From the NCBI GenBank assembly GCA_016927115.1, contig JAFGNH010000028.1, forward strand, positions 1 through 64,000: DNA of 64,000 nucleotides, read 5' to 3'. The notes under the pieces were generated by a model, which had not been told where the DNA came from, did no database searches, and worked only from the letters and a program-made list of their open reading frames with translations. The stretch comes from Anaerolineales bacterium (lineage in GTDB: Bacteria > Chloroflexota > Anaerolineae > Anaerolineales > E44-bin32). A program made the position numbers and the translations under genes. Shown in pieces: positions 43,354-54,074 of this stretch (positions are counted from its first letter, which is position 1; the number at the start of each line of letters is the position of its first letter).

Positions 43354-44337
43354 TCAATAACTCCCAACAGCAAAACAGGTTTTCAGTTGAGTAAACCGTC
43401 CGGAGTGTTTTCCGTACGCCACAATTCCAGAAGGCTGGTATGCGCTTAAGAGAGAAAAAAGCTCATTCATACTGGCCCTGAATGCCGGCTCTTTTGCCAG
43501 GCACCCATCCAGAATCAGCTCCTCCAAAAACGGCGGAATATCCGGATTCTGCAGGGAGATCTCGCGAGGGCGCTTCTGCAGAATCGAGGAAGCTGCAGCT
43601 CTATCAGAAATATGAAGAAATGGTTCTCTGCCGGTAAATAGCCGGTATAGCAGTACCCCCATACTCCATACATCTGATTTACAGCCACTATCACGTTCAA
43701 GACCTGAAAAGCCACAAGACTGAAAACCGGACAGCCTTTCCGGTGACATGTATGCAAGAGAACCGTCTCGCTGCACTGTGTCCACACTTCCAGCAACACC
43801 CAGATCCACAAGGACCGGCATGAAAACCTCTCCCTCCACAGGTACTGTACGAAACACTATATTCTCTGGTTTCAAATCGTTATGCGCATACCCCTTTTCA
43901 TGCATCAGCAGCAGTGCATCGCATAATCGGACGGCTATGCTAATACCTTCATCAATAGATAACACTCCAACTCCCTGCAGATAATTCTCCAGACTGTTTC
44001 CTGCAAGGAACTCCATCCCAAAGAACCATGGGGAACCGAAGAGTCCTACAGCGCGCTCCTTATATCTGTTTACGCTCCGGGATACTGTTCGCAGATGGAC
44101 AATGTTTGGATGGACAAGCTGCTGCAGGATTTCCACCTCTCGATGCAGCGCTGCAAAATAATATCCGGAATCCGGACCAGTGCGGCTTACTTTAAGCGCA
44201 ACCGCGTCCTCCGCTCTTCCAGACCTGGACGCTTTTACAATACGAGCCATTCCCCCCAACCCCTGCGGAATGACTTCAAGAATGGTGAACTCACCGATCA
44301 GACTTCCGGGCCTCAGTATATATGAATCTTCAGTCAC
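43354..44337 (-). CDS. Ser/Thr protein kinase in type VII secretion-like locus
   Basis: 327 residues, GTG start (GGGAGG upstream), no transmembrane helix or PASTA domain. Kinase motifs: glycine loop IPQGLGGMARIVKA, VALKV (ATP Lys), LHREVEIL (alpha-C Glu), the catalytic loop YAHNDLKPENIVF (His-Asn-Asp instead of HRD, but D, K, N present), and DLG in place of DFG (VLVDLGVAG), then YMSPERLSG and DVWSMGVLLYRLFTGREPF. It is probably active. Last of three minus-strand genes with the VWA-FHA and YukD-FHA proteins. It could phosphorylate the FHA partners or EssC. EssB of Firmicutes T7SS carries a pseudokinase, so this might be its functional counterpart (inference). Confidence 0.9.
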   Translation of the reverse strand: MTEDSYILRPGSLIGEFTILEVIPQGLGGMARIVKASRSGRAEDAVALKVSRTGPDSGYYFAALHREVEILQQLVHPNIVHLRTVSRSVNRYKERAVGLFGSPWFFGMEFLAGNSLENYLQGVGVLSIDEGISIAVRLCDALLLMHEKGYAHNDLKPENIVFRTVPVEGEVFMPVLVDLGVAGSVDTVQRDGSLAYMSPERLSGFQSCGFSGLERDSGCKSDVWSMGVLLYRLFTGREPFLHISDRAAASSILQKRPREISLQNPDIPPFLEELILDGCLAKEPAFRASMNELFSLLSAYQPSGIVAYGKHSGRFTQLKTCFAVGSY

Positions 44338-44367
44338 CGTATCCTCCCTTGAATGAACCCATGATAT

Positions 44368-46308
44368 TCAGTCCAGAACAGGCAGGTCATGCTGCGGCCT
44401 TGTCTTTCTTTCATCCTTTTCTGCATACCCTTCGTCCAGGTACCCCTCAGCCGACTGAAACATCAATCTGACACCACCTCGCTCAAGCACACCAAGATCC
44501 AGAATATCACCATTCTTCAGTCTGACAGCCTGGAATGCAATCAACTGTTCTTCATTCAGAAAGGTACCATTCGAACTGTTTTCATCCCGGACAGAAAAAT
44601 AAGCATTGTTTTCCAGAATAGTGCAGTGCAGGCGGCTGATAGGGCTGCCATCCTCATCCTGATGGATCAGTAAATCGGCATATCGTCTCGACCGCCCCAG
44701 GGAGGTTGTTCCATACAATTCAAAGGCTTTACGTGATTGTTCAAAGAAGCCTTCCAGAGGAATCAGAAAACCTGCCGCCACCGATTGGGTCATACAATTC
44801 GTGACAGAGTCTACCGATTCTTGAACCGGGTCCTCTATTCTCGCTCCACATCCTCCCTTCCTTCCCTTCATTACAACAAATACAGCAGCCACACCAGCTG
44901 TTAATACAATGAGTATCAGAAATACTTTCCATAAAGACTGGTTAAGAAAACCTGTTGAAAAGCTTTCCGGCATGGAAAATACAGCCGGGTTTGAGACTAC
45001 CGTGAAACCGAATTCATCCTCAACCACCACATTCATACTGACCGGTTCTCCATTACTTTCGGGGGCCTCGGAGAGATTGAGATAAAAAACTGCATTTCCA
45101 CCAACAACTTCAGCCGTATCCAACAGGATCCCCTCAGAATATAATGCAGCTGCAGCTTCTCTCTGATTGAACCCATCCGGAAATTCGACCCGTGCCTGAA
45201 CCACTATTTGTTCCCCCTTCTGCGCCGACGCCAAACCGGCATGTGCCTCTTCACCCAGCTTTTGCTGCTCTCCTGTGGAATATGCGCTGACAACCACGGT
45301 TGGTGGCAGAAGCTCGATGGAATACTCCCCTGATGCCTGGAGAGAAATATCTTCATTCTGGAGCATCAACTCCAGATGGTGAGTCGTGGAAGGGATTGTA
45401 CTGAGGAAGGTCAGACACAGCTGCGCTGCACCTGCCCTTATAGTTTCAAAAAGCAGCGATGGATCCGATTCTGAAACATCCGGAAGGAATATCCCCCCGG
45501 TCGCCACCGCAAGTTCTCTTGTATACATCGACCAGTAATCAGAAGCTTCCTCCCTCGTCATTACAGCATGGATACGAACATCGCTTGCGCTGGCTATTGC
45601 AGAGATCTCCCCCAGGTCCGCCATATATCCCGGCGTGAAAAGGATAATGTCCATCTGCTGGGAAAAACTTCCTGATCCAACTTGTTTGAGCTGTTCGAGT
45701 GCTGCCGATAATCCGATGCGCGAATTCTTTCCTGACACAGGCACAGGCGCAGCAGCCAGCTGTCCTGGAGAATAATTTTCCAGCGCTGTAAGCACTGTCT
45801 GCGGTTGGTCTGTAAACGGAACCAGGATTTCCGTTCTTCCACCATTCTGTATTAGTACCATTACCTGGTCCAATCCAGGTTGAAACCAACTGCGCCCGGA
45901 AATAAACAGGCGAAAATATGCCAGAGCTTTCAACCTGACCTCATCCGGGGTGATACCTGTATTAAAAACGCCATCACCTGAATCCAGCACAAGCACCATG
46001 CGAGAACCAGCATCAACCAGATTCACTTCCTGAAGATCCCGCTGTTCACCATCCTCAAAAATAAACAGAGCTGTATCCTCCGCGATCGGCAGAATAGAGC
46101 CCCCTTCCTCTCCGCGCAGCCGGGTGTACACATTAATTGCAGGATAGTGCGACGTATCGATACCTGTGATTTCCAACCTCGCAGTATAAGGCTGAGCATA
46201 TACAGGTACAGAGTACACTGGCGATGCCAGTATTAGAACCAGAAAGGATATTATAGTGATATACCGGCCCCTGGTCTGCCGAATTCCTGAAAGAAGTAGT
46301 TCAGACAA
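44368..46308 (-). CDS. VWA-like / transmembrane / FHA domain protein
   Basis: 646 residues from TTG 46308 (GGAGGGGG upstream). N-terminal signal or anchor (about 15-38), a von Willebrand A-like domain (about 95-300, RMVLVLDSGDGVFNTG and QMDIILFTPGYM; the MIDAS reads D-x-G-x-G so metal binding is doubtful), an Ig-like region (about 320-455), a transmembrane helix (about 465-487, VFLILIVLTAGVAAVFVVM) and a cytoplasmic C-terminal FHA domain (GTTSLGRSRRYADLLIHQ ... SPISRLHCTI ... DENSSNGTFLNEEQ) with the Arg, Ser, His and Asn that recognise phospho-Thr. It links outside to inside and probably docks the kinase or a phosphorylated partner. In the T7SS-like locus, it follows the YukD-FHA gene by 12 bp. 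Confidence 0.9.
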   Translation of the reverse strand: MSELLLSGIRQTRGRYITIISFLVLILASPVYSVPVYAQPYTARLEITGIDTSHYPAINVYTRLRGEEGGSILPIAEDTALFIFEDGEQRDLQEVNLVDAGSRMVLVLDSGDGVFNTGITPDEVRLKALAYFRLFISGRSWFQPGLDQVMVLIQNGGRTEILVPFTDQPQTVLTALENYSPGQLAAAPVPVSGKNSRIGLSAALEQLKQVGSGSFSQQMDIILFTPGYMADLGEISAIASASDVRIHAVMTREEASDYWSMYTRELAVATGGIFLPDVSESDPSLLFETIRAGAAQLCLTFLSTIPSTTHHLELMLQNEDISLQASGEYSIELLPPTVVVSAYSTGEQQKLGEEAHAGLASAQKGEQIVVQARVEFPDGFNQREAAAALYSEGILLDTAEVVGGNAVFYLNLSEAPESNGEPVSMNVVVEDEFGFTVVSNPAVFSMPESFSTGFLNQSLWKVFLILIVLTAGVAAVFVVMKGRKGGCGARIEDPVQESVDSVTNCMTQSVAAGFLIPLEGFFEQSRKAFELYGTTSLGRSRRYADLLIHQDEDGSPISRLHCTILENNAYFSVRDENSSNGTFLNEEQLIAFQAVRLKNGDILDLGVLERGGVRLMFQSAEGYLDEGYAEKDERKTRPQHDLPVLD

Positions 46309-46320
46309 TGCCCCCTCCTG

Positions 46321-46959
46321 TTATCTGGTTCTGTTATCTTCCTGATAATCCCATAAAAAGACCAGTTCATACCTTCCAAAGCGGATCAAATCTCCATGGT
46401 GCAGCCGGTATCTTTCCATAGGCATTAATGGAGCACCGTTCAGGCAGGTACCATTGAGGCTGCCCAGATCCTGAAGAAAGAAGCCATCACGATCACGGAA
46501 GATCAGAGCATGCCGTCTTGAGAGGATTGCTGATTCGTTGGGATTTATTCTGCTGATATCCAGTGTTTTCAAAGGCACAGCGAATTCTTGCCGGTATCCC
46601 TGACGGCCAATTACAACAGAACGCCTCTCAATCGGAAAAACGATGTTTCCCGCTGCCAGGGCTGGCCCTGAAGTGCGGAAATAGGAATCTGTAGTCAGAA
46701 ATCCTCGGGGAATAATTTTCGATAGAAGGAGCAGGTGATCACCATCAACGATCATTGATTCACCCAGAGTAGTTCCGCCTTGCAGCACACGTTCAGCCTC
46801 CTGGTGTTTAAGAATAAATTTCGCCATCGATGAAGAAGTGCTGGCTGGAAAAAAATAATCTCCCAGAAGCCGGGCGGCTTCCGCAGCCTTCAAGGACGCC
46901 GGTAAATCCAGATCGTGTGATCCATCAGGAAAGTAGTGCAGCGTTACCCCCACATACAT
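46321..46959 (-). CDS. YukD-like ubiquitin-fold / FHA domain fusion
   Basis: 212 residues from ATG 46959 (GGGGGAAAGG upstream; the frame is open to 47001). Residues 1-85 look like the ubiquitin-fold YukD/EsaB protein of T7SS (VGVTLHYFPDGSHDLDLPAS ... RVLQGGTTLGESMIVDGDHLLLLSK). Residues about 115-205 are an FHA domain (VVIGRQGYRQEF, SAILSRRHALIFRDRDGFFL, DLGSLNGTCLNGAPL). YukD and FHA are separate or absent in Firmicutes T7SS, so this is a fusion of two expected parts. First gene of an operon with VWA-FHA and the kinase; divergent from the WXG100 gene. Confidence 0.8.
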   Translation of the reverse strand: MYVGVTLHYFPDGSHDLDLPASLKAAEAARLLGDYFFPASTSSSMAKFILKHQEAERVLQGGTTLGESMIVDGDHLLLLSKIIPRGFLTTDSYFRTSGPALAAGNIVFPIERRSVVIGRQGYRQEFAVPLKTLDISRINPNESAILSRRHALIFRDRDGFFLQDLGSLNGTCLNGAPLMPMERYRLHHGDLIRFGRYELVFLWDYQEDNRTR

Positions 46960-47320
46960 TGTTTTTGCCTTTCCCCCACAGGAATAATTTCTGTACATCA
47001 ATCACTCTTACTATACCCCGTTCAAACAGATGCTTCAATCTCCCATCAGTAAAAATACATGACCTTTGTATTAAATCTTTCAATGGATTAAGACATTGGA
47101 ATCATACTGGTGTAACTTTACGCGCTCAAAGCCTTTCACAGCCGCCCCTTGAGCAGCACACTCTTTAGCCTAACTCTTCAGGCCGTTTCCATGATGATCC
47201 GCCATACAATACGTATAGATTAAAGGTACTGCTGACGGGCACAAAAAAGCTTGATCCACACAATGCTCCTGTGAAATAATTCGATCAACCAAACATCAGC
47301 ACAAAAAGGGAGGAAACACA
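46960..47320. promoter_or_regulatory. Divergent intergenic region between YukD-FHA and WXG100 genes
   Basis: 361 bp without a gene. A weak promoter candidate for the WXG100 gene is TTGATC (47251-47256), 18-nt spacer, AATAAT (47275-47280), then AGGGAGG before the ATG at 47321. No clear operator was seen. It should hold promoters for both directions of the secretion locus. Confidence 0.35.
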
Positions 47321-47626
47321 ATGTCTACCACCTTAAGGATTGAGCCCGAAACCGTTGAAAATCTCGCCGGTCAGATCAACAGCATTCATGACAATGAAAT
47401 CAAGGATATTCTTGGACGACTACGCCAGCTGAACGATCAGCTGGACCAGGCTTGGGATGGACCATCTCAGATCCTTTTCACAGAGAAATATGGAGATTGG
47501 ATTGTCCAGCTGGATAACTTCAGCACAACGTTAACCGGCATTTACCGGTATCTCAACTCTGTTGTCGAGAATTATCGCGCCATGGATGATGCAGCAAAAG
47601 CTGCAATCCATACATCCATCGAATAG
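47321..47626 (+). CDS. WXG100 family protein (EsxA/YukE-like)
   Basis: 101 residues, the usual size for ESAT-6-like T7SS substrates. It has no signal peptide, is helical throughout (two predicted long helices), and carries the W-x-G turn between them (QLDQAWDGPSQILF, Trp about 45). AGGGAGG precedes the ATG. Such proteins form dimers secreted by EssC. The YxxxD/E-type C-terminal signal may be YRAMDDAAKAAI. It lies convergent with essC and divergent from YukD-FHA, which together define a T7SS-like locus. Confidence 0.93.
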   Translation: MSTTLRIEPETVENLAGQINSIHDNEIKDILGRLRQLNDQLDQAWDGPSQILFTEKYGDWIVQLDNFSTTLTGIYRYLNSVVENYRAMDDAAKAAIHTSIE

Positions 47627-47648
47627 CTGGCATCAGACCCCTTCACAG

Positions 47649-47680
47649 ATGGAGCCTGCCACTTTAGCAGGCTCCATTCC
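47649..47680. terminator. Terminator between WXG100 gene and essC
   Basis: A perfect 11-bp stem ATGGAGCCTGC/GCAGGCTCCAT (47649-47659 with 47667-47677), 7-nt loop, then TCCATTTTCAC. It stands between two convergent genes and probably works for the plus strand. Confidence 0.7.
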
Positions 47681-47707
47681 ATTTTCACAATATAATTGGA
47701 ACCACCT

Positions 47708-50700
47708 TCAGTGTTGCCGGCTTTGATGGTCCTTCATCTCGTGCTCCCCCGGGAAAGCAACCTGAATCACTTTCTGCCCGGATGGATCATAGTACACGCC
47801 TCTCCCGGGAGGAAGATCTCGCCCACGCATCCGCTTTGGAATATGGACGCCAACTTTTAGTGCTTCTGAATAATCGGTTGATACCAACCAGATCCCTCCC
47901 ATACTCGTTCGAAAGCGGCGTATCATTCTATCCGGGCTTTGCAGGGCAGACTGTGGAAGCGAGGCGAAAATCCAGAAATTGGGGGATATCTCCGGCTCTA
48001 AACAAAAATCCAGAAGAGAACCAAATCTGGCTTCCATATCAGCAGATACCAGCTGCAAATCATCAATTATGAGTAAAAATAAACCCCGCGATTCTAAAGG
48101 CTCCATTTTCTTTTTTGCCACATTTTCCAGGAACCTTCCAGCTTCTTCAAACCACTCCCCCGCTGAACTATCCAACCACTTAATTTCAGGCTTTTGAAGA
48201 AAAGGCACTGCCTTTATCCCGCGTTGATGGCTGAGTACAAGTACATCCACCATACCAGCCGGGATGGTGGATGTTATGCTGGACAGGATTGTTCCTAAAG
48301 CCGCCGATTTTCCGCTGGAGGGTGGACCGCTGATCAGAAACCGCTGTGGCGACTTGTCTGGTTCGAACCAGACTGGCAGCAGGTGTTGTTCATCTAGACC
48401 GAGCAGGATTTTTCCCCCGATAGTTCCTTCATCTGTGGCTTCTGGATACTGCTTCATTAGATCCCACAAGCCGAGCTTCTCTGGAAGAGCCTTGATATCG
48501 TGAGGCAGTGTTCCCCGCCAGCTTTCTGCCATCTTTGTTCCTATCTGGTTCAACCAACCAATCCAATGTTCCTCTCCGCCATCAGCTGGTGAAGCTATCT
48601 GCACTTCCAGCGGATCCTTGCCGGAAATATACCCCCTTCCGGGAATATCCAGCATCTTCTTTGTATTCAATTTGCTGCCAAGAAGGATTCCATAGTGGCT
48701 TTTCTCGAGTAAAGAGAGAACTACCCGCTTTTTAATCAGCTCCATTTCTCTTCCCATTAGAGGGCGATCGGCGGTGAGGATAAAACTGATTCCATATGCA
48801 GTCCCTTCCCGGATCAGATGCATCCATTCAGACAGATCCTCCGGATACTGCTCACGGAATTTTATGTAATTGTTGATCACAATGAGCAGCCTGGCTTCCC
48901 TTTCTTCTGCTGGGCACTGGTTGTTGTAAGCAGACAGCCCCACCACTTTCCTTTCGAGAAATTGTTGTTTGCGCCTGTTGAGAACGTCTGTCAGGAATCT
49001 AAGCAGCTTCAGTACCCGCTCTTCATCTGCTGCTTGATAAATTCCTCCGATATGTGGAAAGTCTCCAAAAGAAGCCAGAAGCTTATGCCCCGAGAAATCG
49101 ATAATATGTACGTGAAGCTCGTCAGGTGGATATACGTAGGCCAGGCTATAAACAGCTGTTTGGAGAAACGTTGTTCGCCCTGACCCTGGCGATCCCACAA
49201 TAAGCATGTTTCCACTGGATAGCTCTACCTCATAGAGGAACTGGCGCTGGTTAACTGGATCATCAACCAGACCAACCGGTGTAGCTTTGCTCTTCTGCTC
49301 CCAATTCCATTCCTTCATGTCCTTCCTGAAAAACTGTTCGACGAGTGAACCCAACCCTATCCTTTCAGGCAATGGTTCTATCCAGGGACCTGGCAGTTTC
49401 TGCAACCCCATCTCTACAGCCGCCTTTTCAGCCATCTGGACCAGCACTTCAGCTTCAGTTGAGTGCTTGCCTGTTGTTTCAGCTGCCCCTTGATTCAGTC
49501 GTGTATCCTGAATCAGGACAACTCTGCTTCCATCCGGGCAGATTTCATAAACCGACAGATCCGGATCCACTGCTGAGGAAGTAGCCCCCACTTGATGCAC
49601 TCCCGCAATTCTTGCGACCTGAAACTGCTCGTAATTTTCGAAATTACCAACCCGGTAATAAGCCCGGCCTGGTGGATTTGCTGGCAGCAAATATGCATCT
49701 GCTGTTCCCAAAACATTCCTGCTATCCTCTGCACGTTCCACTCTCAAACAGATTCGAAATTTCATATTGGCGCGAATGCGGTCATTCACCACACCTTCTG
49801 GTTTTTGCATTGCAATCACCAGATGAACACCCAGCGCCCTGCCTTTTTGTGCAACGCTTATAAATTGATCCATCACCTGGCCGAGGTCATATCTGAAACG
49901 ATCCCGCAGTTCAGCAAACTCATCGATGACAATGAATAGATATGGAAATGGCTTTTTGAGACCTGCCTGATGGTATTTGTCTATATCAGCAACACATGCA
50001 TCTGTTAGCATCCGTTCCCTGCGCTGCATTTCTCCAGAAAGCATCTGTAACGTTCTGATTGTTTGCCGGCCATCCAGATCTGTGACCAGGCCGATCGTAT
50101 GCGGAAGCCTGCGCAGAACAGACATTGCCGTGCCACCTTTATAGTCAATGAGTAAAAACTGGACCTGGTGTGGATGATGGTTTAAAGCCAAACCGGTAAG
50201 CAAAGAAAGAAGGAACTCGCTTTTGCCCGAACCTGTTGTTCCTGCGATCAGGCCGTGAGGACCTGCAGCCGACTGTTTCAAATTAAGCAGTAGTGGTCGC
50301 TTTCCTGCGCGCATCCCTGCTATGGCTTCCAACTGAGGAGGATCAGTCAGCAGCCTCTGCCATCGTGTTTTCAGATCGAGTGTATCCAGATTCAAGTCCA
50401 TCAGATCCAATAACCGGACAGATTCGGGAAGATCGGACTGCTGCGAGACATCATAGTTCTTGAGGGATGCCAGCTTTCGGCTTATAAAATCCGCCTTTTC
50501 AAGGTCAAGCTGGTCCTGTCTGAAGATCACTGGAGGTGCGGAAGCCCCTGATTTATACTCCGCCTGCTGATCAGAGAGGATCTCAACAACAGCGTTAAAA
50601 CCGGCAGGAATGTGGGATGGATGAGCTGAAAGGAAAAATACCAGGACCTTCAAATCCTTCTCACCTGAAAGCAGTACCCTGAAAAGCTCACTCTCACGGA

Positions 50701-51640
50701 GGCATTCAGCATCCTCAACAACCAGCAGCATATAGGGATGGTCTTTATTCTCCCTGAGTTTTTCAAGTAATTGTGAAAGCAGAGCTGCACCGGTCTCGTT
50801 GTCGTAGGCAATTCGCGGCAGATTATCAAGAAGCGCACCGGTATGAGGAAGCCATTTAATCCATTCCCACTGGTTTGCTGTACGGTGCTGGTAGATCGCT
50901 GCTATTGAAAGATCTGCAGGAGCATGCAACCCTGCCAGCTGACACAACAAAGAGCGGATGAATGCCCCACGAAGTTCCATTGGCCCGGCAACAGCCAGCA
51001 TCGGAACCCCTGTCAACGCTACAGTTATCGGTACCTGGTCTACCCATGCATACCTTTCAACCAAATCGCGTGCACGCATAGATCCAGGTGGGGCTAATTC
51101 GGGGAATTCTATTCGAGGGGACTTGATCTCAAAACTTGTTCTACGCCTGCCCAATCCTAAACGTAATTCCAGAAAATCCGGGTCACTTTTACGCCGTTCC
51201 CAGATCCTGCCCTCGTTCATTAGTACCCAGTGGGAAATCTGATCGTTGGAGGGGAAATTGTAATCCAATGCTTCTTTTTGCTTGATTATAGCAAAGCGAC
51301 ACTCCTTCTCAATTTCATCCAGACATTTTCTATAGATATCACGCAGCTTAGTCTGCTCTTTCCGAAAAAGGCGGTGGCGGTCTTTATACCGGAAATACGT
51401 GATCATACAAAAAACAGCTCCCCCACAGATTATAATCAATGGATATAGTGAATTTCTGTAGAAAAGGATCATACCCAGACCGACAACCAGGGATCCTGCC
51501 ATAGGGCTAATAATGACCAATAGCCCTGGCTTCTCGGGTTCAGACGGTTCAGGTGGGAAATGCGGAATTTCTATTGAGTTGACAGGTTGTTGAAGTATTT
51601 TCCGTACAGTCTTCCGATACGGTCTCCCCAAACGCTTCAT
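47708..51640 (-). CDS. essC: EssC/YukB-type FtsK/SpoIIIE secretion ATPase
   Basis: 1310 residues. Two transmembrane helices at about 38-60 and 65-85, followed by three FtsK/SpoIIIE-like ATPase domains: P-loop 1 AGTTGSGKSEFLL (about 470, with the Walker B FIVIDEFAEL), P-loop 2 VGSPGSGRTTFLQ (about 820) and P-loop 3 SGPPSSGKSAALG (about 1110). This is the EssC/EccC layout. Firmicutes EssC starts with two FHA domains; this one has none, the FHA modules being on separate proteins next door. It drives export of WXG100 proteins across the membrane. Promoter candidate at 51758-51787. D1 has intact Walker motifs; D2 and D3 are less typical (SGRTT, Lys and Arg swapped). Confidence 0.95.
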   Translation of the reverse strand: MKRLGRPYRKTVRKILQQPVNSIEIPHFPPEPSEPEKPGLLVIISPMAGSLVVGLGMILFYRNSLYPLIIICGGAVFCMITYFRYKDRHRLFRKEQTKLRDIYRKCLDEIEKECRFAIIKQKEALDYNFPSNDQISHWVLMNEGRIWERRKSDPDFLELRLGLGRRRTSFEIKSPRIEFPELAPPGSMRARDLVERYAWVDQVPITVALTGVPMLAVAGPMELRGAFIRSLLCQLAGLHAPADLSIAAIYQHRTANQWEWIKWLPHTGALLDNLPRIAYDNETGAALLSQLLEKLRENKDHPYMLLVVEDAECLRESELFRVLLSGEKDLKVLVFFLSAHPSHIPAGFNAVVEILSDQQAEYKSGASAPPVIFRQDQLDLEKADFISRKLASLKNYDVSQQSDLPESVRLLDLMDLNLDTLDLKTRWQRLLTDPPQLEAIAGMRAGKRPLLLNLKQSAAGPHGLIAGTTGSGKSEFLLSLLTGLALNHHPHQVQFLLIDYKGGTAMSVLRRLPHTIGLVTDLDGRQTIRTLQMLSGEMQRRERMLTDACVADIDKYHQAGLKKPFPYLFIVIDEFAELRDRFRYDLGQVMDQFISVAQKGRALGVHLVIAMQKPEGVVNDRIRANMKFRICLRVERAEDSRNVLGTADAYLLPANPPGRAYYRVGNFENYEQFQVARIAGVHQVGATSSAVDPDLSVYEICPDGSRVVLIQDTRLNQGAAETTGKHSTEAEVLVQMAEKAAVEMGLQKLPGPWIEPLPERIGLGSLVEQFFRKDMKEWNWEQKSKATPVGLVDDPVNQRQFLYEVELSSGNMLIVGSPGSGRTTFLQTAVYSLAYVYPPDELHVHIIDFSGHKLLASFGDFPHIGGIYQAADEERVLKLLRFLTDVLNRRKQQFLERKVVGLSAYNNQCPAEEREARLLIVINNYIKFREQYPEDLSEWMHLIREGTAYGISFILTADRPLMGREMELIKKRVVLSLLEKSHYGILLGSKLNTKKMLDIPGRGYISGKDPLEVQIASPADGGEEHWIGWLNQIGTKMAESWRGTLPHDIKALPEKLGLWDLMKQYPEATDEGTIGGKILLGLDEQHLLPVWFEPDKSPQRFLISGPPSSGKSAALGTILSSITSTIPAGMVDVLVLSHQRGIKAVPFLQKPEIKWLDSSAGEWFEEAGRFLENVAKKKMEPLESRGLFLLIIDDLQLVSADMEARFGSLLDFCLEPEISPNFWIFASLPQSALQSPDRMIRRFRTSMGGIWLVSTDYSEALKVGVHIPKRMRGRDLPPGRGVYYDPSGQKVIQVAFPGEHEMKDHQSRQH

Positions 51641-51787: not shown

Positions 51788-52091
51788 GAGCCAAACCATA
51801 TCGGTGTGTCTGATTTCTGTTGTTCACGCTTCAAAACCGCACAGCTTGAAAATAGAATTGCCTTATTCTAAGTTTTCATGCTTGCTCGCTGTTATTTTTT
51901 TCCTATACTTGAATCAGATTGGGTATCAGGATCCTTCAACAACATCCGAATTCACCTTTCACGACATCGAACACGACCCACAAATAACGATCCGATCTCA
52001 CATGCCTGAAAAACCTGCACATCATGAAGTATTTGGTGATTGCAAAAATCCGGCTGGTTATTGGAAAGTGCTTCACAGAAAAGGATTGAAC

Positions 52092-54074
52092 ATGTATTTC
52101 TTCTCTGCTTTTGAGCTGCAGGATCTGCTGGTTCTGTGTATACAGCTTTTAGCGATCTCTGCTGGCGGATATTTCCTGATCGCTGTTTTTTTCGGTCTGC
52201 AGCCGCGCGACCGTTTAATTCCCGGAATCGCTCTGGGAACAATTCTTTTCATCCTTCTGGCAAACATTCTGGCTCAACTGTTTCCACTCAGGACTGCTTT
52301 CCCGGTGGCATCAGCAATATTATTGCTTGCAGGATCGATAGCCATCTGGACACAGAGAAAACTTATCGAATGGCGGATACCCGCAGCAGACACTGCAATC
52401 CAACTCTCTGTTTTTGGGGGTTTGCTAATCCTCTTCATACTGATCAATCGAGGGCTCGCCATTCTGGATGATTATCACAATCTCCCCCTTGTCTCGATCA
52501 TGTCAACAGGCAAAATCCCTCCTCCGTTCTATTTACGAACCGATACCAGGATTGCTTATCATTATGGGCTGCATCTTTTTTCCACTTTTCTTGTTTCTCA
52601 GGGCAACTTCTTCCCCTGGAGTGCGTATGATGTCAGCAAAGCGCTTATGCTCTCACTGACACTTTCCACCGCATGGATCTGGTTCCGCAACGCGCAGCTG
52701 AATACTGCCAGCCAGCTTTCCTGCCTTTTAATTTTCGCCCTCGCAGGAGGTACTCGCTGGCTCCTGCTTCTCACCCCGGCCTCCTGGCTGCAGAATGCCA
52801 GTACCTCCCTTTCTCTTCTTGGTTCAGGACATTCAACCGGTATCTGGCTAACAGAGAATCTCTCATCAGCATGGAATATTGAAGGGGCTGGACCTTTTCC
52901 CTTCCCCTTTGCATTTGCCAATGGAGTATTCCATCCGTTAATTTTCTCTCTCGGCTCAAGCAGCACTCTCCCGATTCTCACAATTCTCATAATACTTTTG
53001 CTGCGCCCAAAACATTGGTCTTTGCCTTCAATGGTGCTCTGTGGTTTATGTATATCAAGCCTGGGATTATCAGCGGAACTGTGGCTCGCGATAATCTACA
53101 TCGGTACCGCGCTCGTCGTGCTGATCTCCCTGTTGCAGAAAAAACCCGTAAAACACTGGGGGCACTGGATTGTCATTCTGACGATTGCACTCCCGGTTAT
53201 TATGGTTCAAGGAGGAGTGGTCACCGAACTTCTAATGGATCGATTCAACCTGTCGGGCAATGCTGCTGTTACAGGATTTGGCAGCTTCATCTTTCAACCA
53301 GTCCCCTCGTTAGTCTCTGCCCACCTTGGTGCTCTGGCTCTGACCAATATCAACACCCTGATTTTAGCGTTATTTGAAATTGGCCCGATCCTGCTGCTTT
53401 TACCGTTTACGTTTTTCTACTTGCGAAAAACCCGGGAAGGCATGAATCTCCTCCCCGCCATCCTGCTCCTTGGATGCTTTACGCTAAGTATTTTATCCTT
53501 GTTCATTCACTATTCTGTTCAGAGAGACACAGCAAGGATAGTTGGAAACAGCTGCTACCTCTGGCTTTTGCTGGGATTGTCGGTTCTTTTTAAAACAGAA
53601 ACCACAAAGCGACTGTTCAATCAAACAACCCGGGTGGCTTGCACACTTTCAACTCTCGGAGGCCTGGTTTTCTTATCCATTATGCTGATATCAATCAAGT
53701 CACCGCTGCAATCTTATTTCATCACAGGCCCGGATGCCCAATTCACAGTGAATTACTGGAATAAACTGGAAGAGGATGCCTGGATCTTCGATCCCCTGCC
53801 TTATAGAGCAGCAACCATTTTTGGACGGATTACCGATGCAAAAATCACTCCATATATTTTCATGGATTCCTATAAGGAACTGATGCGTAATCCAATTCCA
53901 TCTGTCGTCAGCAGTGCAGGATATGATTATTACTATCTGGATGAAAACGCATGGAAAGCCCTTACACGTGAACAACAACGGACATTTCAGGATTCGTGCG
54001 TCCTGTCAGTTGAGGCGATAGAAGATACCATCGGAAATTTGCGAATCCTGTATGACATCAGAAAGTGCCGCTAA
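52092..54074 (+). CDS. Polytopic membrane protein of unknown function (glycosyltransferase-like topology)
   Basis: 660 residues from ATG 52092, AAAGGA upstream. Twelve to thirteen transmembrane helices over about residues 5-570, and an extracytoplasmic C-terminal tail (YWNKLEEDAWIFDPLPYRAA ... YYYLDENAWKALTREQQRTFQD). Topology and the tail fit GT-C/ArnT-like or DUF2298-type proteins, but no DE/ED catalytic motif is obvious. It might use the polyprenol-linked sugar made by the Dpm1-like enzyme at 22175 (speculative). The frame extends to 51804 but has no better start. Confidence 0.7.
   Translation: MYFFSAFELQDLLVLCIQLLAISAGGYFLIAVFFGLQPRDRLIPGIALGTILFILLANILAQLFPLRTAFPVASAILLLAGSIAIWTQRKLIEWRIPAADTAIQLSVFGGLLILFILINRGLAILDDYHNLPLVSIMSTGKIPPPFYLRTDTRIAYHYGLHLFSTFLVSQGNFFPWSAYDVSKALMLSLTLSTAWIWFRNAQLNTASQLSCLLIFALAGGTRWLLLLTPASWLQNASTSLSLLGSGHSTGIWLTENLSSAWNIEGAGPFPFPFAFANGVFHPLIFSLGSSSTLPILTILIILLLRPKHWSLPSMVLCGLCISSLGLSAELWLAIIYIGTALVVLISLLQKKPVKHWGHWIVILTIALPVIMVQGGVVTELLMDRFNLSGNAAVTGFGSFIFQPVPSLVSAHLGALALTNINTLILALFEIGPILLLLPFTFFYLRKTREGMNLLPAILLLGCFTLSILSLFIHYSVQRDTARIVGNSCYLWLLLGLSVLFKTETTKRLFNQTTRVACTLSTLGGLVFLSIMLISIKSPLQSYFITGPDAQFTVNYWNKLEEDAWIFDPLPYRAATIFGRITDAKITPYIFMDSYKELMRNPIPSVVSSAGYDYYYLDENAWKALTREQQRTFQDSCVLSVEAIEDTIGNLRILYDIRKCR

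Follow-up and report, generated by a model that had tools for sequence, protein, structure and literature searches.

A putative reduced type VII secretion locus with a serine/threonine kinase and separate FHA proteins in an Anaerolineales bacterium

Introduction

The type VII secretion system (T7SS) subtypes T7SSc to T7SSj were described in a survey of Bacillota and Actinomycetota only (Garrett, Higginson, Palmer 2024; PMC11217815). T7SSc, a system of Bacillota with components TscA-TscG, combines an EssC lacking FHA domains with WXG100, YukD and vWA proteins, a kinase with an intact active site, a PPM phosphatase and an EspG-like chaperone, and FHA-less EssC also occurs in T7SSg and T7SSh (PMC11217815). 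In T7SSb (S. aureus Ess, B. subtilis Yuk), the FHA domains are part of EssC, lack phospho-binding residues and are paired with the pseudokinase EssB. T7SSe, T7SSf and T7SSj have an FHA-bearing EssC and a separate FHA protein, TsxJ; the Ser/Thr kinase TsxD is present in e and j, and none was found in f. Control of secretion by kinases and FHA proteins is also known in T6SS (cited in PMC11217815). For Chloroflexi there are brief mentions of WXG100 proteins or T7SS toxins (PMC3935865, PMC10765036, PMC3482391).

We analysed a 64,000-nucleotide window (positions 1-64,000, forward strand, of contig JAFGNH010000028.1) from the genome assembly of an Anaerolineales bacterium (GCA_016927115.1; GTDB Chloroflexota; Anaerolineae; Anaerolineales; E44-bin32). 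The original prediction placed five genes at 43354-51640, encoding a WXG100 protein, EssC, a YukD-FHA protein, a VWA-TM-FHA protein and a Ser/Thr kinase, and all five were found there as described. The literature searched, which left most subscription papers outside, contained no description of this gene set. We consider it fairly probable that the locus represents a reduced Chloroflexota T7SS subtype, distinct from the published T7SSa-j, with a YukD adaptor and a surface VWA protein read via phospho-threonine.

Results

The WXG100 protein and the EssC ATPase

A WXG100 protein and an EssC-type FtsK membrane ATPase are general features of T7SS, and the locus encodes both. The WXG100 protein (101 aa; 47321..47626, + strand) scores 40.1 bits against PF06013 (Pfam cut-off 27.3) and carries the predicted W-x-G motif as WDG at residues 45-47. 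Its C-terminal YxxxD sequence, YRAMD at residues 85-89, conforms to the YxxxD/E secretion motif and also to the broader HxxxD/ExxhxxxH pattern of WXG100 proteins (PMC3935865).

The EssC/EccC ATPase (1310 aa; 47708..51640, − strand) matches TIGR03928, the Firmicutes EssC model, at near full length (residues 8-1222) with 776.5 bits, 1.9 under the equivalog cut-off of 778.4. A hydropathy scan places two predicted TM helices near residues 40 and 65 (51392..51523, −). Motif reading located the D1 Walker A sequence GTTGSGKS at residue 467 (50219..50242, −), the Walker A-like D2 sequence GSPGSGRT at residue 816 (49172..49195, −) and the D3 Walker A sequence GPPSSGKS at residue 1105 (48305..48328, −). 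The two helices thus stand as predicted, and two of the three expected FtsK-type P-loops are canonical; the middle one has Arg in place of the Walker Lys. Because the TIGR03928 match begins at residue 8 and a profile search of the EssC protein gave no FHA match, the absence of FHA from EssC, including the N-terminal FHA typical of T7SSb, is a tested result and not an assumption. Solved relatives are YukB (9qks) and an EccC-type structure (4nh0). The source assembly, which is 92% complete with 6.75% contamination, encodes only one full-length EssC.

The absence of other T7SSb components, part of the original prediction, was borne out by the searches for EssB and EsaA. EssB (PF10140) was found in none of 51 genomes (the 50 EssC-positive genomes described below and G234), and the source genome gave no match to EsaA (TIGR03929); the B. 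subtilis control was positive in both searches. EccB (PF05108) was likewise found in 0/51 genomes, with a Mycolicibacterium plasmid (L156) as positive control, and inspection of the locus showed no gene for EccD, EccE or MycP.

We also considered a defence or other non-secretory system built around an FtsK-like pump, for which PADLOC kinase and FtsK/HerA models do match the kinase and EssC domains. We rejected this reading as extremely improbable: the matches are at the level of domains only, and the near-full-length TIGR03928 match and the adjacent WXG100 gene fit secretion far better. PHROGs gave no matches. Promoter-like sites were no more frequent than in shuffled sequences, and terminator-like sites lay mostly inside genes. 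Divergent from EssC lies a gene (51804-54074, +) for a 756-aa protein that has approximately 11 TM helices and matches neither Pfam nor PHROGs.

Two separate proteins carry the FHA domains

The YukD-FHA protein (46321..46959, −) starts at an ATG at 46959; the listed ORF starts at a TTG at 47001. Its YukD domain (46726..46953, −) scores 26.3 bits against PF08817 when searched as a protein (cut-off 27) and 28.5 bits, above the cut-off, in the genome search, and the FHA domain (46375..46614, −; residues 130-209 of the 226-aa ORF) scores 63 bits against PF00498; the predicted fusion is confirmed. Whether the N-terminal part is ubiquitin-like had been set in advance as a fold check. An AlphaFold2 model from a 19-row alignment places the N-terminal strands and helix in beta-grasp order beside a separate FHA domain; within residues 1-80 most ten-residue blocks have a pLDDT of 87-97 and one block 65. 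A Foldseek search with this model returned FHA structures and, among the matches for the N-terminal part, ubiquitin chains. The predicted fold therefore passes the check, and the locus has the YukD/EsaB-like ubiquitin fold, a component of nearly all T7SS subtypes. Alignment members share 20-31% identity with the window protein, and G119, R120, S148, R149 and N170 are invariant among them (numbering of the 213-aa row).

The VWA-TM-FHA protein (646 aa; 44368..46308, −) is predicted to consist of a VWA ectodomain, a TM helix and a cytoplasmic FHA domain, and is conserved in 8 EssC-linked loci. The hydropathy scan shows a signal-peptide-like helix at residue 16 and a predicted TM helix at approximately residues 462-480 (44869..44925, −). 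The FHA domain (PF00498, residues 536-606; 44491..44703, −) scores 50.4 bits. The VWA_2 match is weak alone (E 0.03), but relatives support the VWA assignment, and the predicted architecture stands on these grounds. Across the 8 loci, whose members are 15-28% identical to the window protein, R539, S558, H561, N580 and G581 are invariant; the glycine preceding the FHA arginine is invariant in the YukD-FHA set only, not in this one. Two features of this protein count against the proposed function: its MIDAS-like motif is DSGDG, not DxSxS, and its structure prediction had a pLDDT of 36, so the model was not used.

The gene set recurs at EssC loci across the class

Of 298 genomes of the class, 50 carry EssC. 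WXG100 proteins occurred in 43 of these 50 genomes vs 24 of the 248 others. FHA genes numbered 6.05 per 100 kb around EssC vs 0.25 in control stretches (approximately 24-fold denser), with corresponding densities of 6.71 vs 1.26 for kinase genes, 1.64 vs 0.25 for VWA genes and 1.96 vs 0 for YukD genes; the 20 control stretches came nearly all from the same genomes, and the models were trained on EssC loci and favour such loci. Relatives from different families of the class share the gene set, and the linkage is not accidental. Because the same set recurs, the locus is a genuine, if functionally still putative, form of a system already known in kind.

The same genes can also stand apart from EssC, which tempers this result and counts against a dedicated machine. 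VWA, FHA and kinase genes occur in various combinations without EssC at L056, L164, L165 and L169, and at L013 (source-genome contig C145) and L176 VWA and TM-FHA genes lie beside E1, E2 and JAB genes in clusters for ubiquitin-like conjugation. The FHA/VWA/kinase genes might accordingly be an independent surface-signalling cassette beside a two-part EssC and WXG100 locus, perhaps sharing only regulation with it; the cassettes or parts of them without EssC in C145, L056, L164, L165, L169 and L176 favour this explanation, as does the membership of the window VWA protein in a broad family. A search with the VWA ectodomain matched 191/298 genomes of the class and is for that reason unfit for scoring presence or absence; EssC-linked rows were among those used to train its model, and only the top scores are informative. 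We regard the independent cassette as unlikely, given the strong enrichment at EssC, the recurrence, in several genera, of EssC/WXG100 loci with the VWA-TM-FHA/kinase order, and the fusion of one FHA domain to YukD, an EssC-partner domain. The check for accidental linkage thus came out mixed: enrichment and repeated order at EssC loci on one side, cassettes without EssC or WXG100 (L013, L056, L164, L165, L169, L176) on the other.

The conjugation clusters at L013:1049-7664 and L176 encode an E1-like protein, a RING-like TM protein, a YukD-E2 fusion, YukD, JAB, a TM-FHA protein and a VWA protein, the VWA of L013 being a relative of the window VWA. Neither EssC nor WXG100 was found near these two clusters.

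WXG100 proteins are also encoded on another source-genome contig, C140 (L012:11933-19926), together with a 370-aa protein headed by WXG100, a pair of EspG-like proteins, and kinases, one of which carries a WD40-like repeat region at its C-terminus. The C140 EspG-like family also adjoins EssC in T7SSc loci. The C140 proteins could supply the window machine with substrates and chaperones, or stem from contamination. We did not accept the WXG100 and EspG-like genes as part of that machine, given the contamination of the assembly and a composition unlike that of the window, yet within the spread of other contigs.

Kinase lineages at EssC loci

The kinase (327 aa; 43354..44337, −) scores 112 bits against Pkinase and was predicted to be soluble with intact K, D and K-x2-N residues. 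The residue check agrees: K49, D154, N159 and D178 are intact, with HND at the HRD position and DLG at the DFG position. Its closest relatives, at 37-38% identity, are soluble kinases at L159 (genome G181), L042 (G254) and L158 (G234), each encoded by the gene that immediately follows a VWA-TM-FHA gene, with YukD-FHA and WXG100 genes close by. EssC is also present at L159 and L042; L158 stops at a contig edge. At L174 the order is VWA-TM-FHA, kinase, VWA-TM-FHA, EssC, and the soluble kinases following VWA-TM-FHA in these four loci are 309-317 aa long. In the kinase tree, the window kinase groups with those of L159, L042 and L158 with an SH-aLRT of 90, or 81 with L174 added. This soluble-kinase form has so far been found in four to five genomes, a narrow distribution that counts against a subtype of its own. 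At L159 a PP2C phosphatase gene lies between the kinase and YukD-FHA genes. No phosphatase gene was found at 43354-51640, which also counts against the proposed control; PP2C genes of the source genome are on two other contigs.

The window kinase family has as its nearest sister clade ten EssC-linked kinases of 357-393 aa (L031:13767, L037:4655, L038:12728, L041:10870, L044:13371, L047:6993, L052:7043, L104:165, L110:8857, L160:17325). The catalytic aspartate (HRD) and the catalytic asparagine are gone in 10/10, and the proteins carry a C-terminal hydrophobic tail, as expected of tail-anchored pseudokinases. FHA proteins at these loci keep the phospho-binding arginine, serine and asparagine. 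To judge from sequence, the partnership of pseudokinase and FHA protein resembles that of EssB and EssC in T7SSb, with the FHA on a separate protein.

Most of the sister-clade pseudokinases adjoin a giant EssC of approximately 2900 aa. Giant EssC proteins (2862-2964 aa) contain D0, then three D1-D2 pairs in succession, then D3, with seven canonical P-loops, and occur in several families of the class (L031, L037, L038, L041, L044, L051, L054, L160; the L174 copy is cut); that of L051 has one further P-loop pattern match. The literature searched contains no description of an EssC with triplicated D1-D2.

Comparison with T7SSc and other systems

The original prediction called the locus rewired, with FHA domains moved off EssC. 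The second part does not stand: FHA-less EssC is already established (PMC11217815) and prevails at the Chloroflexota loci examined, and the EssC tree is directionless. The term rewired overstates the novelty because an FHA-less EssC with YukD, VWA and kinase is published as T7SSc (PMC11217815). Our own reading of Brevibacillus daliensis L096 gave the T7SSc composition, with VWA, PP2C, EspG-like, YukD, EssC, WXG100 and kinase proteins. What survives of the earlier interpretation is the conserved linkage, the FHA and kinase residues and the predicted beta-grasp.

The locus could be a divergent T7SSc member, sharing with T7SSc the common FHA-less EssC, a single WXG100 protein, YukD, a vWA protein, a catalytically intact Ser/Thr kinase and the absence of EssB and EsaA; close T7SSc relatives do exist in Chloroflexota (L017/L018). 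The components nevertheless differ. TscE is cytoplasmic without FHA, whereas the window VWA protein has a signal-like helix, a TM helix and an FHA domain; TscB is not fused to FHA, whereas the window YukD is. TscD has a TM helix and belongs to another kinase lineage; the window kinase has no TM helix and falls outside the TscD clade in the kinase tree, and we rejected it as TscD-type. The phosphatase TscF and the EspG-like chaperone TscG have no counterpart at 43354-51640, and PP2C and EspG-like genes lie on other source-genome contigs. A single clade of window EssC and T7SSc EssC was rejected (p-AU 0.0001; 24 EssC rows, on a short-search tree with long branches). We therefore judge membership in T7SSc to be quite improbable, and the window locus, as read from these comparisons, is not T7SSc. 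At L018:3-12559 the class has a T7SSc-like locus, whose EssC places close to the T7SSc clade and which encodes two kinases of the TscD clade together with WXG100 and an EspG-like protein.

The place of the window EssC within the EssC tree is undecided, its end branch being long (1.81), which counts against a defined subtype. A clade joining it with the EssC proteins of L027, L029 and L042, loci bearing YukD-FHA, is compatible with the data (p-AU 0.418; 24 rows), which does not prove the clade.

The locus shares with T7SSb an EssC-type ATPase, WXG100, a YukD domain and the pairing of FHA with a kinase fold; unlike in T7SSb, its FHA domains are on two separate proteins and keep their phospho-binding residues, and its kinase keeps its catalytic residues. 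With T7SSe, T7SSf and T7SSj it shares a separate FHA protein at the EssC locus, and a Ser/Thr kinase in the case of e and j, but EssC carries FHA in those systems and TsxJ has DUF6382, not YukD or VWA. As in ArnA-ArnB-ArnC of Sulfolobus, where FHA, VWA and Ser/Thr kinase proteins form a phospho-switched complex (PMC12852372), the locus brings these three protein types together; the Arn proteins regulate archaeal motility and have no tie to secretion, and the likeness is one of working principle only.

Discussion

The gene set, its conservation, the intact catalytic and phospho-binding residues and the predicted ubiquitin-like fold are read from sequence; on export, docking, sensing and phospho-control we infer the following. 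EssC would be a hexameric inner-membrane motor and channel, exporting WXG100 dimers marked by their C-terminal YxxxD signal. In the way that EccD docks on EccC through its ubiquitin-like domain, the YukD domain would dock on EssC, and its fused FHA domain, together with the cytoplasmic FHA of the VWA protein, would read phospho-threonines placed by the soluble kinase from the adjacent gene. The VWA protein, whose VWA domain would lie outside the membrane, may sense a surface ligand or serve as an envelope partner like EsaA/EssB in T7SSb. Phosphorylation would then assemble the pieces and permit secretion. Such phosphorylation-gated assembly is suggested by the FHA phospho-threonine residues, the kinase residues, the PP2C gene at L159, the ArnA-ArnB-ArnC complex and the T6SS precedent. 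Chloroflexota envelope architecture varies, which bears on the outer route of the substrates and counts against the scheme.

In a more far-reaching version, to which we give a rather low probability, phospho-threonine would gate the T7SS: a VWA receptor at the surface and a YukD-FHA adaptor would control EssC by means of a dedicated kinase. In the sister lineage a tail-anchored kinase without catalytic base would be a scaffold with FHA proteins, and this would either repeat the T7SSb EssB-FHA partnership independently or mark its origin.

Under the reading as a distinct reduced subtype, the locus appears to be a kinase-linked T7SS in a bacterium distant from the well-studied hosts, a known kind of system in a distinct arrangement, and would extend T7SS diversity to Chloroflexota, beyond the Bacillota and Actinomycetota of PMC11217815. 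The class offers a natural series on the same EssC core, with a catalytically intact soluble kinase, a TscD-like kinase or a tail-anchored pseudokinase, and phosphorylation control of T7SS assembly is therefore directly testable.

Several further EssC arrangements were seen. At L035:8185-12432 EssC itself carries an N-terminal YukD fusion (1416 aa). EssC-like ATPases of 948 aa are encoded at L172:9597-16463 and L173:12625-15468, with a shorter match at L171; one or two WXG100 genes lie near those of L172 and L171, and none of the three genomes has a full-length EssC match. Near EssC, L022:1-4692 encodes a 1564-aa protein with two kinase and three FHA domains.
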